45,509 bases of DNA from an uncultured Geobacter sp. Lineage in GTDB: Bacteria; Desulfobacterota; Desulfuromonadia; Geobacterales; CAIOGM01. The stretch lies in the NCBI GenBank assembly GCA_903857795.1, contig CAIOGM010000177.1, positions 1-45,509 of the forward strand, given 5' to 3'. A model generated the notes under the pieces. The model saw only the letters and a list, made by a program, of their open reading frames with translations. It was not told where the DNA came from and did no database searches. This document shows positions 7,381-40,773 of this stretch, in pieces (the first letter of the stretch is position 1; the number at the start of each line of letters is the position of its first letter). Made by a program: the position numbers and the translations under genes.

Positions 7381-7493
7381 GGCGTGAGGCGTGAAGCGTG
7401 AGAGAACCTGGAACCCTAAACCTCGGCCCCTGAACCCTGAACCCTGAACCCTGAACATAGAACCCCGAACCCTGAACCCCGAACCACGAACCC
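7379..7493. repeat. GCGTGAG and GAACCYN heptamer array
   Basis: Directly after the previous stop come three GCGTGAG-like units. From 7404 there is an array of GAACCCT/GAACCCC heptamers, partly interrupted, ending 19 bases before the RNase J start. The same heptamer recurs at 23.6, 34.1 and 40.7 kb. No promoter or binding site is recognisable inside it. Confidence 0.8.
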
Positions 7494-32917: not shown

Positions 32918-34051
32918 ATGTTCGACAGCCGTCCCACCATCGCAGAGATCAACCTCCGGTCGCTGCGCGCCAACTATGAGCGGATCAGGGGGAGCATCCC
33001 CGACAGTTGCGGCATTCTCGCCGTGGTCAAGGCGGATGCCTACGGTCACGGTTTCATGGATGTTGCCGCGGAACTGGAACGGGTCGGGGTGACCGCCTTC
33101 GGGGTGGCCTTCCTGGCGGAGGGGATTCAGCTGAGAAAGAGCGGCATCGACCGCCCGGTGCTGGTCCTGGGTGGGGTCTACCCCGGCCAGGAGCGAAAAT
33201 GCGTCGGCTTCAATCTCTCCGCGGCGGTCTTCACCCTGGAGCACGTGCGGGCGCTGGACGCCGCGGCCCGCAAGCTCTTCCGCAAGGCGCTCATCCATCT
33301 GAAGGTCGATACCGGCATGGGGCGGTTGGGGATCAGTCACGACCAGGCAGAGGAGTTCTTCCGGGAGCTCAAAGGTTTTCGCCATGTAGAGCTGGAGGGG
33401 ATCTTCTCTCACTTCGCCGCCGCCGACGAACTGGACGAGGAGAGCGAGGCGTATACGCTGCTGCAGGAGGAGCGCTTCTCCGCCGTGGTTGCCGGGGCGA
33501 GGGGGCACGGGTTCTCTCCCCGCTATCTGCATGTGGCCAACAGCGCGGCTGCCATCAGTCGCGACCTCCCCGTCTGTAACCTGATCAGACCGGGGATCAC
33601 CCTCTATGGCGCCCTCCCTTCCAGCCAGTTCCAGGGGAAGATGGAGCTCCAGCCGGTCATGAGTCTGAGGAGCAGGATCGGGATGCTCAAGTGGGTGGAG
33701 CCGGGGAGCCCTGTCAGCTACGGCCGCCGGTATGTGGCCCACCAGCGGACCCTCATCGCCAGTGTGCCGGTGGGGTATGCCGACGGCTATCTCCGGGCCT
33801 TCACCAACCGGGGGGAGGCCATCGTGCGGGGGAGGCGGGTCCGGGTCACCGGGACGGTCTGTATGGACTGGATCATGCTGGACGTGACCGCTGTCGATGG
33901 GGTGGCGGTGGGGGACGAGGTGACTCTGCTGGGGTGCGACCGGGAGGGGAACTGTGTCCGGGCCGAGGAGCTGGCGCTGCTGGCCGGGACCATCCCCTAC
34001 GAGATCTTCTGCACCATCAGCAAGCGGGTGCCGAGGGTATATGTGGAATAG
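32918..34051 (+). CDS. alr: Alanine racemase
   Basis: The 377-residue PLP enzyme makes D-alanine for peptidoglycan. The N-terminal barrel has [11 protein letters not shown] with the PLP lysine K38. It continues with [12 protein letters not shown] and [10 protein letters not shown]. The R-P-G-I-T-L-Y-G block lies in the middle. The C-terminal domain has V-S-Y-G-R, with the second catalytic tyrosine on the following strand, and [10 protein letters not shown]. The length is normal. The gene is divergent from the thiamine operon and followed by a long heptamer array. Confidence 0.95.
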
Positions 34052-34280
34052 GTTCTGGGTCCTGGGTTCTGGGTTCTGGGTTCAAGGTTCTAGGTTCTAG
34101 GTTCTAGGTTCAATGTTCCATGTTCTATGTCGTTCAACCCTGAACCCTGAACCCTGAACCCCGAACCCTGAACCCCGAACCCTGAACCCCGAACCCTGAA
34201 CCCTGAACCCTGAACCCCGAACCCTGAACCTTGAACCTTGAACCTTGAACCCTGAACCCTGAACCCTGAACCTTGAACAT
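34052..34280. repeat. Head-to-head GAACCYN heptamer array
   Basis: After the alr stop come GGTTCTG/GGTTCTA-type units on the plus strand (34053-34130). The orientation then flips: 34142-34274 holds 19 uninterrupted GAACCCT, GAACCCC or GAACCTT units. The two halves are largely complementary and could fold into a long hairpin. It ends 36 bases before the DUF4337 gene, leaving room for a short leader with AAGGAGG. Confidence 0.9.
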
Positions 34281-34310: not shown

Positions 34311-34847
34311 ATGGCGGAGACAAACAAGGAACGGTGGCTGAGCTGGCTGGCTCTTTCTACGGCCTTCATGGCGGTTATTTCGGCGGTTACCACCATGTAT
34401 ATGGGGAAGTTCTCGTCCAAAGCGGTGCTCATGCAGGGACAGGAGACCAACCAGTGGTCCTACTACCAGGCCAAGAGCATCAAGTCGCATACCTTCGATA
34501 TGCAGAAACAGGCTCTGGAGCTGCAGCTCCTCGCCCAGGGGAAGAGTATGCCGCAGCCGGCTGCGGAAAAATTTGCCGAGAAGATCCGGGAGTATGACCG
34601 GGAGGTGAAGCGGTACGAGGGGGAGAAGAGAGAGATCAAGAGCAAGGCGGATGAGCTGGCCCGGACCAAGCTGATGGCCCAGCATATGGGGGGGAACTTC
34701 GGTTACGGCCTCCTCTTCGTCCAGGTAGCCATCATGATGACCTCCATCGCCAGTCTCATGAAGAAAAAGCCCCTCTGGTACTTCGGATTGGCCGCTATGG
34801 TCGGCTGGCTCTTCTTCTTCCTGGATGCGATCTACCTGTTTTACTGA
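34311..34847 (+). CDS. DUF4337-like membrane protein
   Basis: The 178-residue protein starts MAETNKERWLSWLALSTAFMAVISAVTTMYMGKFSS. This forms the first membrane helix (13-30). A motif E-T-N-Q-W-S-Y-Y-Q-A-K-S-I-K, a long charged helical region and two C-terminal helices (about 125-142 and 152-172) follow. The N-term block and the W-x-Y-Y-Q-A-K-S signature are those of the DUF4337 family, which has no known function. AAGGAGG lies seven bases before the ATG. Its last seven bases overlap the convergent PAP2 gene. Confidence 0.8.
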   Translation: MAETNKERWLSWLALSTAFMAVISAVTTMYMGKFSSKAVLMQGQETNQWSYYQAKSIKSHTFDMQKQALELQLLAQGKSMPQPAAEKFAEKIREYDREVKRYEGEKREIKSKADELARTKLMAQHMGGNFGYGLLFVQVAIMMTSIASLMKKKPLWYFGLAAMVGWLFFFLDAIYLFY

Positions 34848-35443
34848 CCTTTTCTTTTCTTACCGCCACTCAGCCGCCCCACCGCCTCTCCCGCCTGCCA
34901 GGCGGTGAACCCGGCCAGCACCCCCACTCCCGCGCCGGTCAGGACGTCCAGCGGGTAGTGGGCCCCCATATACACCCGGCTGAAGGCGACCCCCACCGCA
35001 AAGCTCCAGAGAGGAACCTTTCCCGCAGCTTTTCTTCCATATCCCAGGGTGTAGGCTATCATGAACGAGAAGACCGCGTGCCCTGATGGCAGGGAGTTCT
35101 TCAGCTTCAGTTCTCCCATGACCCGGACCGCGGCGTTTCCCAGGGCGGCAGCGGGTCGGGGGATCTGCAGCAGCTGTTTGATCCCCTCTTCCATGACCAT
35201 TCCCAAGAGCGTCCCGAGGATGAAGACGGCCGGGTAGCGCCACGGCATCCGCTTCCGGTCCGCCGCGGCCCAGACGATGAGGATGAGAGCGTAGAGATAG
35301 ACCATCCGTGAGCTCCCCAGGGAGGTGAGGAGCGGCATGAGCTGGTCAAAGATGGGGTTGATGCAGCGGTGATTGATGAAGAGAAACAGCTTCTGGTTGA
35401 TGCTGCCGGGGCCGTAGAGAAACTGGTAGAGATGGTTATTCAT
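34841..35443 (-). CDS. PAP2-family membrane phosphatase
   Basis: The 200-residue protein has about five membrane helices and the three PAP2 boxes: K-x6-R-P (K-Q-L-L-Q-I-P-R-P), P-S-G-H (S-L-P-S-G-H-A) and S-R-V-Y-x-G-x-H-Y-P-x-D. These form the active site of lipid phosphatases such as undecaprenyl-diphosphate or phosphatidic acid phosphatase, facing the periplasm. The start at 35443 is four bases after the stop of the upstream DUF3426 frame, so coupling is likely. The end is basic (S-G-G-K-K-R-K-G-Q). The physiological substrate is not known. Confidence 0.88.
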   Translation of the reverse strand: MNNHLYQFLYGPGSINQKLFLFINHRCINPIFDQLMPLLTSLGSSRMVYLYALILIVWAAADRKRMPWRYPAVFILGTLLGMVMEEGIKQLLQIPRPAAALGNAAVRVMGELKLKNSLPSGHAVFSFMIAYTLGYGRKAAGKVPLWSFAVGVAFSRVYMGAHYPLDVLTGAGVGVLAGFTAWQAGEAVGRLSGGKKRKGQ

Positions 35444-35447
35444 CCTC

Positions 35448-36345
35448 TCATTGACCGGACGGCTGGGACCCGGCAAGCTCCACCGCAAAATCCACGGCCT
35501 CTTTCGGCATCTTTGAGAAGACGATGACAAAGGGGATCGATTTCCCCGGGGGGACGCCGATGTTGGCGTAGGATTCGCCCAGCCGGTTGTTCATGGCCTC
35601 CTCGATCTTTGCCAGGGGGAGTGTCGCCAGCCGCTCCGGAGGGAGAGGGTTGCCGCAGTAGACGACCTTCTGGAGGATGACGGCCCCGGCGGCGTTGTAG
35701 ATCATTCCCCGAATCTGGAGTGCGGCCCGGGGGCTCTTGTACGAATTGACCGCTACGCCACGGATCACAAAGAGTTCCCCAGCTTCGCTGTTGTTCAGAT
35801 AGCTCCCCTCTACGGTCCTGATGAGGATCCGCTCCTGTACCGCACTCTCCCCGTCGAGCAGTCGGGCGACCCCGTCGAGTCCCACCGCCTTGAACGCCTC
35901 CGGCCCCTTGAGCAGGTAGAGCGCTCCTCCTCCACCCACGATCATCAGCACGATGGCGGCGAGGAGCAGGCTGACCATGGTGATGAACGGAAGACCCTTG
36001 CGGGGTGGTGCCACGGGGGGGGGGTCCCCAACGGTAAAGCTGAAGGTATCATCCGTGACGACGTCGCCAGCGGCAGGAGCAGTCGCAAGTTCTTCCTCGT
36101 GGGGCTCCTCCGCGGCAGGGGGGGCGGGCTCGGCTGCAGCCAGAGGGAGCGGCGGCGCACTCTCCGCCGGGGGCTCACTGCTCCACTGATCCATGGAAGG
36201 GGAGACCGGTTGCCCGGTTTCCTCCACGGTCGCCTCCGGGGCCGGCGGTGCTGCGGGGGGAGAGTCGGGCTCACCGGGTGACCACTCGGTGAAGTCGAAG
36301 GGCTCCTCTCCGGCGGACTCATCGGCCGGCGCCGGGGGGGGGCAG
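35448..36345 (-). CDS. DUF3426-type half of a frameshifted zinc-ribbon protein
   Basis: This frame continues the N-terminal half at 36319-37143 after one base of slip in a nine-C run. It encodes a Pro/Ala/Glu-rich linker that again contains the D-x-F-S-F-T-V block. A membrane helix (about 35942-35995, I-T-M-V-S-L-L-L-A-A-I-V-L-M-I-V) and a C-terminal DUF3426-like beta domain follow (G-E-L-F-V-I-R-G-V-A-V-N and I-P-F-V-I-V-F). The same acidic/Phe linker style on both sides of the break shows that it was one protein of about 560 residues. A start inside the overlap (36470) would be in shadow sequence. Confidence 0.75.
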
Positions 36346-37143
36346 CTCCTGGAGAAGGGGCTCGGGTTCGGGGAGGGACTCCCCGGGGAGCGCATCCGGT
36401 TGCGGCGGTTCGGTTTCGAAGCTGTCGAATCGGTCCCACCCGGACGCATCAGGCAGCTCCTCTTTCCCACTCACTGCCCCCTCATCCTCAATGGCTGGAG
36501 CCGTTTCCGCGCGTACTTCCACCTCTCCCCACTCCGCACCGGCTGCACTCTCCATACTCACCGGTACCGGTGCAGGGGGAGCCCTGACCGGCAGCGGCTC
36601 TTTTTCAAAGGTGAAGCCGAAATTGTCATCACTGTCGGGGGGAAAAGCGGGCTCCTCGGGAGCTGACGCCTCTTCAACCGGGAGGACTCCGGTTTCAGGA
36701 ACCTCTTCGTCGGAGTGAGGCTCTTCCGGCGGGAGGGGGGCGAAGGAGAAGCTGAATTCATCACGGGAGGAATCTCTTCCCGAAACAGCAGCGATGCCCG
36801 GCGCGGGAGCTACGGAAAGAGTGAACTCGTCCTCTTCATCTGCCGCCGGCGTGGTCTCTTCCTTAGGGGGGACTATCTGCTGCTCCTGGAGGGGTGACGG
36901 AGCAGCCTCGTCCTCCGTCCCGGATGTTTCCGGGGGGACTGGTGGCTGTTCCGAGGGGGAGATCTGGACAGGGCTCTCTTCCGGCTGAAGAGCCGGCAGG
37001 GCTTCCAACTCCCCCTGGGGGCGCTCCTTACGCACCACGAAGATATGCTGACAGCGCTTGCAGCGGACCTTGACACCGGACTCGGTGACCTTGTTGTCGT
37101 CGAGCCTAAACTTGGCGCTGCAGTTGTCACATCGTATGATCAT
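36319..37143 (-). CDS. MJ0042-type zinc ribbon protein, N-terminal half
   Basis: The frame starts MIIRCDNCSAKFRLDD and continues V-R-C-K-R-C-Q-H-I-F-V-V, the MJ0042-family zinc ribbon with Cys pairs at 5/8 and 28/31. A long acidic, proline-rich region follows, with a recurring D-x-F-(T/S/G)-(L/F)-(S/T)-(V/F) motif at least three times (E-F-T-L-S-V, E-F-S-F-S-F and N-F-G-F-T-F). It ends at TGA 36319 in the other half's frame, right after a C9 run at 36334-36342. Removing one C joins it to the DUF3426 half. hpt lies 21 bases upstream, so they share an operon. Confidence 0.8.
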   Translation of the reverse strand: MIIRCDNCSAKFRLDDNKVTESGVKVRCKRCQHIFVVRKERPQGELEALPALQPEESPVQISPSEQPPVPPETSGTEDEAAPSPLQEQQIVPPKEETTPAADEEDEFTLSVAPAPGIAAVSGRDSSRDEFSFSFAPLPPEEPHSDEEVPETGVLPVEEASAPEEPAFPPDSDDNFGFTFEKEPLPVRAPPAPVPVSMESAAGAEWGEVEVRAETAPAIEDEGAVSGKEELPDASGWDRFDSFETEPPQPDALPGESLPEPEPLLQELPPPGAGR

Positions 37144-37164: not shown

Positions 37165-37695
37165 TTACCCCAATTCGTAGATCCCCGGAAGGTTCCGAAG
37201 CCGTTCGTCACAGTCGAGGCCGTAGCCCACGAGAAAACCGCCATCCCAGGTGAGGCCGTAATAATCGGGGAGAATGGGGACGGTACGGTCGACATTTTTT
37301 GTTATGAGTACGCAACTTTTCAAGGAGGCAGGCTGCTCCGCCGCCAGCATCGATAGCAGATACCCCAAGGAGAGACCGCTGTCCAGTATGTCTTCCACGA
37401 TGAGCACCTCCTTGCCCTGAAGCCCGGTCAGCTGCTTCTCCGCAAGAGTGACACCTCCGGTGGAGTCCGTCCCGGAGTAACTGGAGATTCTGATGAAGTC
37501 GATAGTTATCGACAGGTCGAGGGCCCGCGCCAGGTCGGCGGCGAAGAAGAGAGCCCCCTTGAGGACAACCAGAAGGTGCAGCTCTTTTCCTGCATAGGCG
37601 GCGGATAGTTCCGCTGCTACTCTGCGGACTGCCGCAGCGATCTGCTCTGCTGAAAAGACCGGCCGCAACAGTGGTCCAGATGACACCCTTTTCAT
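37165..37695 (-). CDS. hpt: Hypoxanthine phosphoribosyltransferase
   Basis: The 176-residue enzyme salvages hypoxanthine and guanine with PRPP. It has the V-V-L-K-G-A-L-F-F strand-loop, the flexible-loop S-S-Y motif (R-I-S-S-Y-S-G-T), the PRPP box VLIVEDILDSG and the base-binding GFLVGYGLDCDERLRNLPGIYEL end. The length is typical. It is the first gene of a minus-strand run with the zinc-ribbon/DUF3426 gene and the PAP2 gene. A purine salvage role is firm from the motifs. Its link to the downstream genes is unknown. Confidence 0.95.
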   Translation of the reverse strand: MKRVSSGPLLRPVFSAEQIAAAVRRVAAELSAAYAGKELHLLVVLKGALFFAADLARALDLSITIDFIRISSYSGTDSTGGVTLAEKQLTGLQGKEVLIVEDILDSGLSLGYLLSMLAAEQPASLKSCVLITKNVDRTVPILPDYYGLTWDGGFLVGYGLDCDERLRNLPGIYELG

Positions 37696-37855: not shown

Positions 37856-38359
37856 TTACGGGCTGTTCTTGGGATGATCCGCTGCCCCTTTGGTCTGTTT
37901 CTTCGTCTGTTTTTTGGTCTGTTTCTTCGTCTGTTTCTTGGACTGTTTCTTCGCCTGTTTCTTGATCTGCCGGGCGTTACTGGTCTGCTTGGATTTTTTG
38001 ACCCGCTTCGATTTACCCGCACTCTTGCTCTTCTTTGTCTGCGTGCTCTTTTTTACCTGTTTCGACTTCTTTACCTGTTTCGACTTCTTGACCTGTTTCG
38101 ACTTCTTGACCTTTTTGGTTTTTTTTGATGTACGGTGTGCCGTGGTTTTCTTGGCGGGCGGACTCTTGATCTCCGGTTCGGGAGAGGTAATGGGAGCGGG
38201 GTCTGCCGGAGCAAATGTCGGCAGTGTGATATCCGGGGCAGCAGCAGGAGTAATAGTCGTCGGTCCTACGGCAAAAGGGGGCGGATCAGCGGCGCAGACC
38301 GCAGCGGCAAGAGCAACGGCAACAATGGCGGCAACGAGCGAGGGTACAACATTTTTCAC
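37856..38359 (-). CDS. Lysine-rich repeat secreted protein
   Basis: The start is a GTG at 38359, eight bases after AAGGAG. It gives a 167-residue protein with a signal peptide (MKNVVPSLVAAIVAVALAAAVCAAD). A Pro/Thr/Ile-rich segment follows, then an extremely basic tail. That tail has three K-S-K-Q-V-K units (15-bp DNA repeat) followed by six K-K-Q-x units (12-bp DNA repeat), with no aromatic core. It may bind polyanions such as DNA, polysaccharide or cell wall. A smaller relative lies directly upstream at 38509-38745. The gene ends 160 bases before hpt, with no clear terminator. Confidence 0.7.
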   Translation of the reverse strand: MKNVVPSLVAAIVAVALAAAVCAADPPPFAVGPTTITPAAAPDITLPTFAPADPAPITSPEPEIKSPPAKKTTAHRTSKKTKKVKKSKQVKKSKQVKKSKQVKKSTQTKKSKSAGKSKRVKKSKQTSNARQIKKQAKKQSKKQTKKQTKKQTKKQTKGAADHPKNSP

Positions 38360-38375
38360 GGTACTTCTCCTTCGT

Positions 38376-38402
38376 TGATACGACGATCTTTCGTCCGTAT
38401 CG
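38376..38402. promoter_or_regulatory. Hairpin in the leader of the lysine-rich gene
   Basis: On the minus strand GATACGGACGA and TCGTCGTATC can pair with one bulge around a 4-base loop, 17 bases upstream of the GTG. It could be an operator or an mRNA structure. Confidence 0.35.
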
Positions 38403-38451
38403 ATTATGTGAAATGAATCATTCAATGGAGTCGGCTCTGCATGAAGACAAG

Positions 38452-40591: not shown

Positions 40592-40660
40592 GTGGTTTGA
40601 CCTCGGCCGGGAGTGTACCAGAGATACCTGAAAAAAAGCAACGGTCACAGACCAGACCCT

Positions 40661-40765
40661 CGAACTCCGAACCCAGAACCCAGAACCCAGAACCTAGAAC
40701 CTTGAACCCAGAACCCAGAACCTAGAACCTAGAACCTTGAACCCCGAACCCCGAACCCCGAACCC
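40661..40765. repeat. GAACCYN heptamer array before the CHASE kinase
   Basis: Fifteen uninterrupted heptamers (GAACCCA, GAACCTA, GAACCTT and GAACCCC, first unit GAACTCC) occupy the 105 bases ending eight bases before the kinase ATG. There is no Shine-Dalgarno sequence between array and start. Confidence 0.9.
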
Positions 40766-40773
40766 CGGATCCT

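Follow-up and report, generated by a model that had tools for sequence, protein, structure and literature searches.

An apparently split zinc-ribbon/DUF3426 gene in an uncultured Geobacter assembly is probably an intact gene with a run-length discrepancy at a C9 tract

The window analysed here, a stretch of 45,509 nucleotides that makes up one entire contig (C177) of an uncultured Geobacter sp. draft genome, contains a gene that is assembled in two reading frames. The question raised by this locus is whether the break reflects a sequencing error, a broken gene, or a tract-length switch that turns expression on and off, which were the three options offered by the initial annotation. The closest named relatives found by a contig scan are uncultured Geobacteraceae and Geobacter MAGs and Geobacter sp. 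AOG1. The whole coding stretch spans 37143 to 35448 on the minus strand, and the features in and around it are the following:

37165..37695, minus strand: upstream neighbour, a phosphoribosyltransferase-like gene (Pribosyltran, E 1.4e-25)
36319..37143, minus strand: 5' part of the split gene, with an MJ0042-type zinc ribbon and an acidic, proline-rich linker (ORF; Pfam; TIGR02098)
36334..36342, minus strand: C9 run at which the frame changes (sequence; switch point of the coding frame)
35448..36345, minus strand: 3' part of the split gene, with the remaining linker, a transmembrane-like segment and DUF3426 (translation; Pfam; identity to same-genus orthologues)
36015..36024, minus strand: second run, C10, within the open downstream frame (sequence)
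34841..35443, minus strand: downstream neighbour, a PAP2-family phosphatase (PAP2, E 5.4e-18; translation), with an approximate start, set at the ATG that directly follows the DUF3426 stop codon

Both runs are present in the sequence as the initial annotation had it, reading as C9 and C10 on the minus strand, and its coordinates for the two halves proved right on the basis of the ORFs, as did the joined reading LPPPAPAD on translation across the run. The 5' ORF comprises 274 residues and ends in LPPPGAGR, its frame closing just past the C9 run, and its overlap with the downstream frame falls at this run; when both frames are joined there, they read LPPPAPADES. The C10 run is harmless, as the downstream frame stays open through it, and it is at the C9 run that the assembled gene splits, so that the zinc ribbon and DUF3426 do not lie in one open frame. 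A coding model based on hexamers, for which 594 long ORFs from the same genome served as the training set, placed the frame change best at 36329, with positions 36325-36348 within 3 nats; the upstream frame scored 40 log-odds units before the run and the downstream frame 100 after it, and the other frames were strongly negative. As the coding model thus maps the frame change to the C9 run, the two halves can be regarded as one gene, and the model supports a one-base length change in this run as the cause of the split. Furthermore, there is no sign of decay, because both halves fit the genome's own codon model.

The domain content agrees with a single protein. The N-terminal CxxC..CxxC ribbon matches Zn_ribbon_4 (PF13717; E 2.3e-16, above the Pfam cut-off), and the 5' part also matches Zn_ribbon_5 (Pfam; E 6.6e-14) and TIGR02098 (E 3.6e-12, above cut-off), while the 3' part has one transmembrane-like segment alongside a C-terminal DUF3426 (PF11906; E 8e-13, 49.1 bits versus a Pfam cut-off of 27.7). 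A match to the adventurous gliding motility protein GltJ (NF033761) was limited to the N-terminal zinc ribbon, residues 4-44, and with 33.9 bits versus an NCBIfam cut-off of 450, the protein is not a member of this family. Its closest counterparts are the membrane proteins of Geobacteraceae and relatives that combine an MJ0042-type zinc ribbon (TIGR02098/PF13717) with DUF3426 (PF11906), with which it has in common the domain order, the size range and a conserved C-terminal motif, and from which it differs only by the break that the assembly shows within the linker and by its C-terminus, which reads SQPSGQ here and SQPVGELIIIK or SQPVGELLQKK in the same-genus copies. The same-genus genes also share a neighbourhood with PAP2 and DUF4337 genes; the order with the PAP2 neighbour is kept in three same-genus genomes, and at least one of these also keeps the phosphoribosyltransferase-like gene upstream. 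No paper on DUF3426 together with a zinc ribbon came up in a literature search. The gene looks like that of an ordinary, conserved and uncharacterised membrane protein, and its layout, with a cytoplasmic zinc ribbon, a long flexible linker and DUF3426 across the membrane, might perhaps suit a membrane-anchored scaffold or sensor.

Some other features of the window were noticed in passing. Arrays of tandem heptamers of the GAACCCT/GAACCCA type, in part intergenic, are found at 34049-34278, where the array comes after alr, at 7404-7493 and at 40652-40767, and similar arrays occur elsewhere in the same genome and in one same-genus genome. The ORF at 37856-38425 has a lysine-rich tail of KKSKQVK / KKQTK repeats that arises from tandem repeats of 12-18 bases.

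The initial annotation had pointed to orthologues of about 560 residues as a comparison, and orthologues in 17 distinct other genomes are all intact, each a single frame of 459-670 residues with both ends present. Three of them, of 459, 530 and 534 residues, are from the same genus and are 59-61% identical to the C-terminal part, and the remaining 14, from other genomes, are open frames of up to 670 residues. These comparisons bear on the possibility that the break is a real and recent slipped-strand mutation, in which case the population would have nine bases at this site and the protein would stop short of the membrane segment and DUF3426, with loss of function. Slippage does mutate long G/C runs, and the split gene is one without known essentiality, but neither half shows other decay in the coding model and the gene is whole in 17 related genomes, and we consider this explanation unlikely, although it is the next most probable after an error or minority length in the assembly.

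A different question is whether the C9 run itself is unusual enough to suggest phase variation, in which a reversible change in its length would turn the protein on or off in part of the population. A coding C9 run is the right type of tract, and a one-base change would suffice. However, the linker is proline-rich (proline makes up 12-13% of the full-length same-genus orthologues), and CCC runs are therefore expected: 52% of synonymous-codon shuffles of the split gene contained one or more G/C runs of at least 9 bases, and 15% contained two or more, so the tract is not longer than composition predicts. Among the long ORFs, 61 runs of at least 9 compare with a shuffle mean of about 43, which is a modest excess. 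The orthologue comparison did not reveal a run held at a fixed place with a varying frame; relatives have C7, C8 or C10 runs elsewhere in the gene, all in frame, and some have no run of 7 or more. A search of the open-access literature for homopolymer phase variation in Geobacter found no paper. Phase variation thus appears very unlikely, and the genome-wide data described below, with about 70 scorable coding runs of at least 9 in the sampled third and with the other broken genes being housekeeping ones, the sole ribF included, also speak against it. The initial annotation is thus supported in part: the coding signal and the 17 intact orthologues favour a single gene split by a one-base change in the run, but switching finds no support.

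How often long runs coincide with frame breaks was analysed in 1.48 Mb, about a third of the 4.05 Mb draft genome (179 contigs), taken in stretches; this sample is not fully random, because 20 stretches were chosen for long G runs. Breaks were scored by a switch-point test with the coding model, which replaced an earlier flank-based frame test. A Viterbi gene finder with frameshift states was left unused, as its 260 calls were mostly minus-strand gene junctions that resulted from asymmetric transitions. The frame was uninterrupted at 66 of the 71 scorable G/C runs of at least 9, and it changed at the other five, which include the C9 run of the split gene. At random sites, 25 of 1079 showed a frame change, most of them presumably at gene junctions, and the enrichment at long runs is thus only modest (5/71 versus 25/1079; one-sided Fisher p 0.03). 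The argument rests on the broken genes that were checked by homology. One candidate, at L066:2676, looks like two overlapping neighbour genes, and another, at L117:244, adjoins a contig end.

The homology check covered three of the four other frame changes at runs of at least 9, namely those in ribF, pilB and a second ftsH. The FAD synthetase/riboflavin kinase gene ribF, for which the genome yields a single match, is interrupted at a G10 run (L062:4730-4739, contig C92) and has an open frame of 217 residues, compared with 356-372 in three same-genus relatives, where the run is G7 or G8. A G11 run (L047:863-873, contig C66) divides the main pilB into two parts in different frames, and the same-genus copies are single frames of 569-589 residues. 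The second ftsH changes frame at a G9 run (L043:4048-4056, contig C51) and has 349 residues compared with 631-643 in same-genus copies; an intact ftsH paralogue is encoded on contig C26. Across the other broken loci, the departures in length go in both directions. A radical-SAM-like gene also looks broken at a G8 run (L118:3069-3076, contig C148), judged from the translation alone.

RibF is essential for FMN/FAD synthesis in nearly all bacteria, and because the sole copy is affected, living cells are unlikely to carry this break. A few per cent of the long runs would therefore have a wrong or mixed length; this reasoning carries over from ribF to the split gene only by analogy. Like lesions in pilB and the sole ribF also argue against a real slipped-strand mutation, which in turn gains from the fact that long runs in this assembly are mostly in frame; as 66 of 71 are unbroken, the error rate must be modest. 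Because similar breaks occur in other genes, including the sole and essential ribF, a miscounted run is favoured over an on/off switch, and either an error, which was one of the options raised in the initial annotation, or a mixed length offers the best fit to the split.

The character of the assembly is compatible with such miscounting. Several contig ends have exactly 141 bases in common, which is the default largest k of MEGAHIT; this suggests a de Bruijn assembly that used k = 141 and hence short reads. Nine-base runs are usually counted correctly in a short-read consensus, but a few per cent of runs can still be miscounted as a result of PCR stutter, low coverage or a mixture of strains, a proportion that would match the observed rate of breaks. 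One-base departures at long runs in unrelated genes, one of them essential, would also be in line with the homopolymer-run frame breaks of draft assemblies. A G21 run (L148:571-591) that lies about 13 bases from the end of contig C81 is possibly a sequencing artefact.

Two further explanations would produce functional protein from the sequence as assembled. Recoding, either by a +1 ribosome shift on CCC-C proline codons or by a slip of RNA polymerase on the C9 run, could yield the full-length protein, and both the required direction (+1) and the site (CCC CCC CCC) would be suitable; proline sites of this class are known to be +1-prone when tRNA-Pro lacks m1G37 (PMC7577736; related PMC4519876). 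However, the other broken loci shift in both directions, and there is no conserved frameshift, as 17 of 17 orthologues are single-frame, which makes recoding highly improbable. For phase variation and recoding alike, the existence of the run is all that speaks in their favour. It is also conceivable that the genome truly has one-base run changes in several genes including the sole ribF, and that enough product is still made through slippage or frameshifting on long runs of G or C, as in some endosymbionts at A runs, but we give this the least credence of all.

In summary, we regard an ordinary intact gene, whose C9 run has been assembled with an erroneous length or as a minority variant, as the most probable explanation (probability roughly 0.68). 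The one ordinary protein that it encodes has a zinc ribbon at its N-terminus, followed by a long linker that is disordered and rich in Pro and Glu, a transmembrane segment and DUF3426, and the C9 run consists of proline codons; the assembly would have the wrong length at this run, or the assembler would have picked a minority length, and the organism itself would carry the intact gene. The discrepancy thus appears to be located in the data, not in the cell, and single-base breaks at G/C runs of at least 9 in the present draft genome should have the support of reads before they are called pseudogenes or switches.
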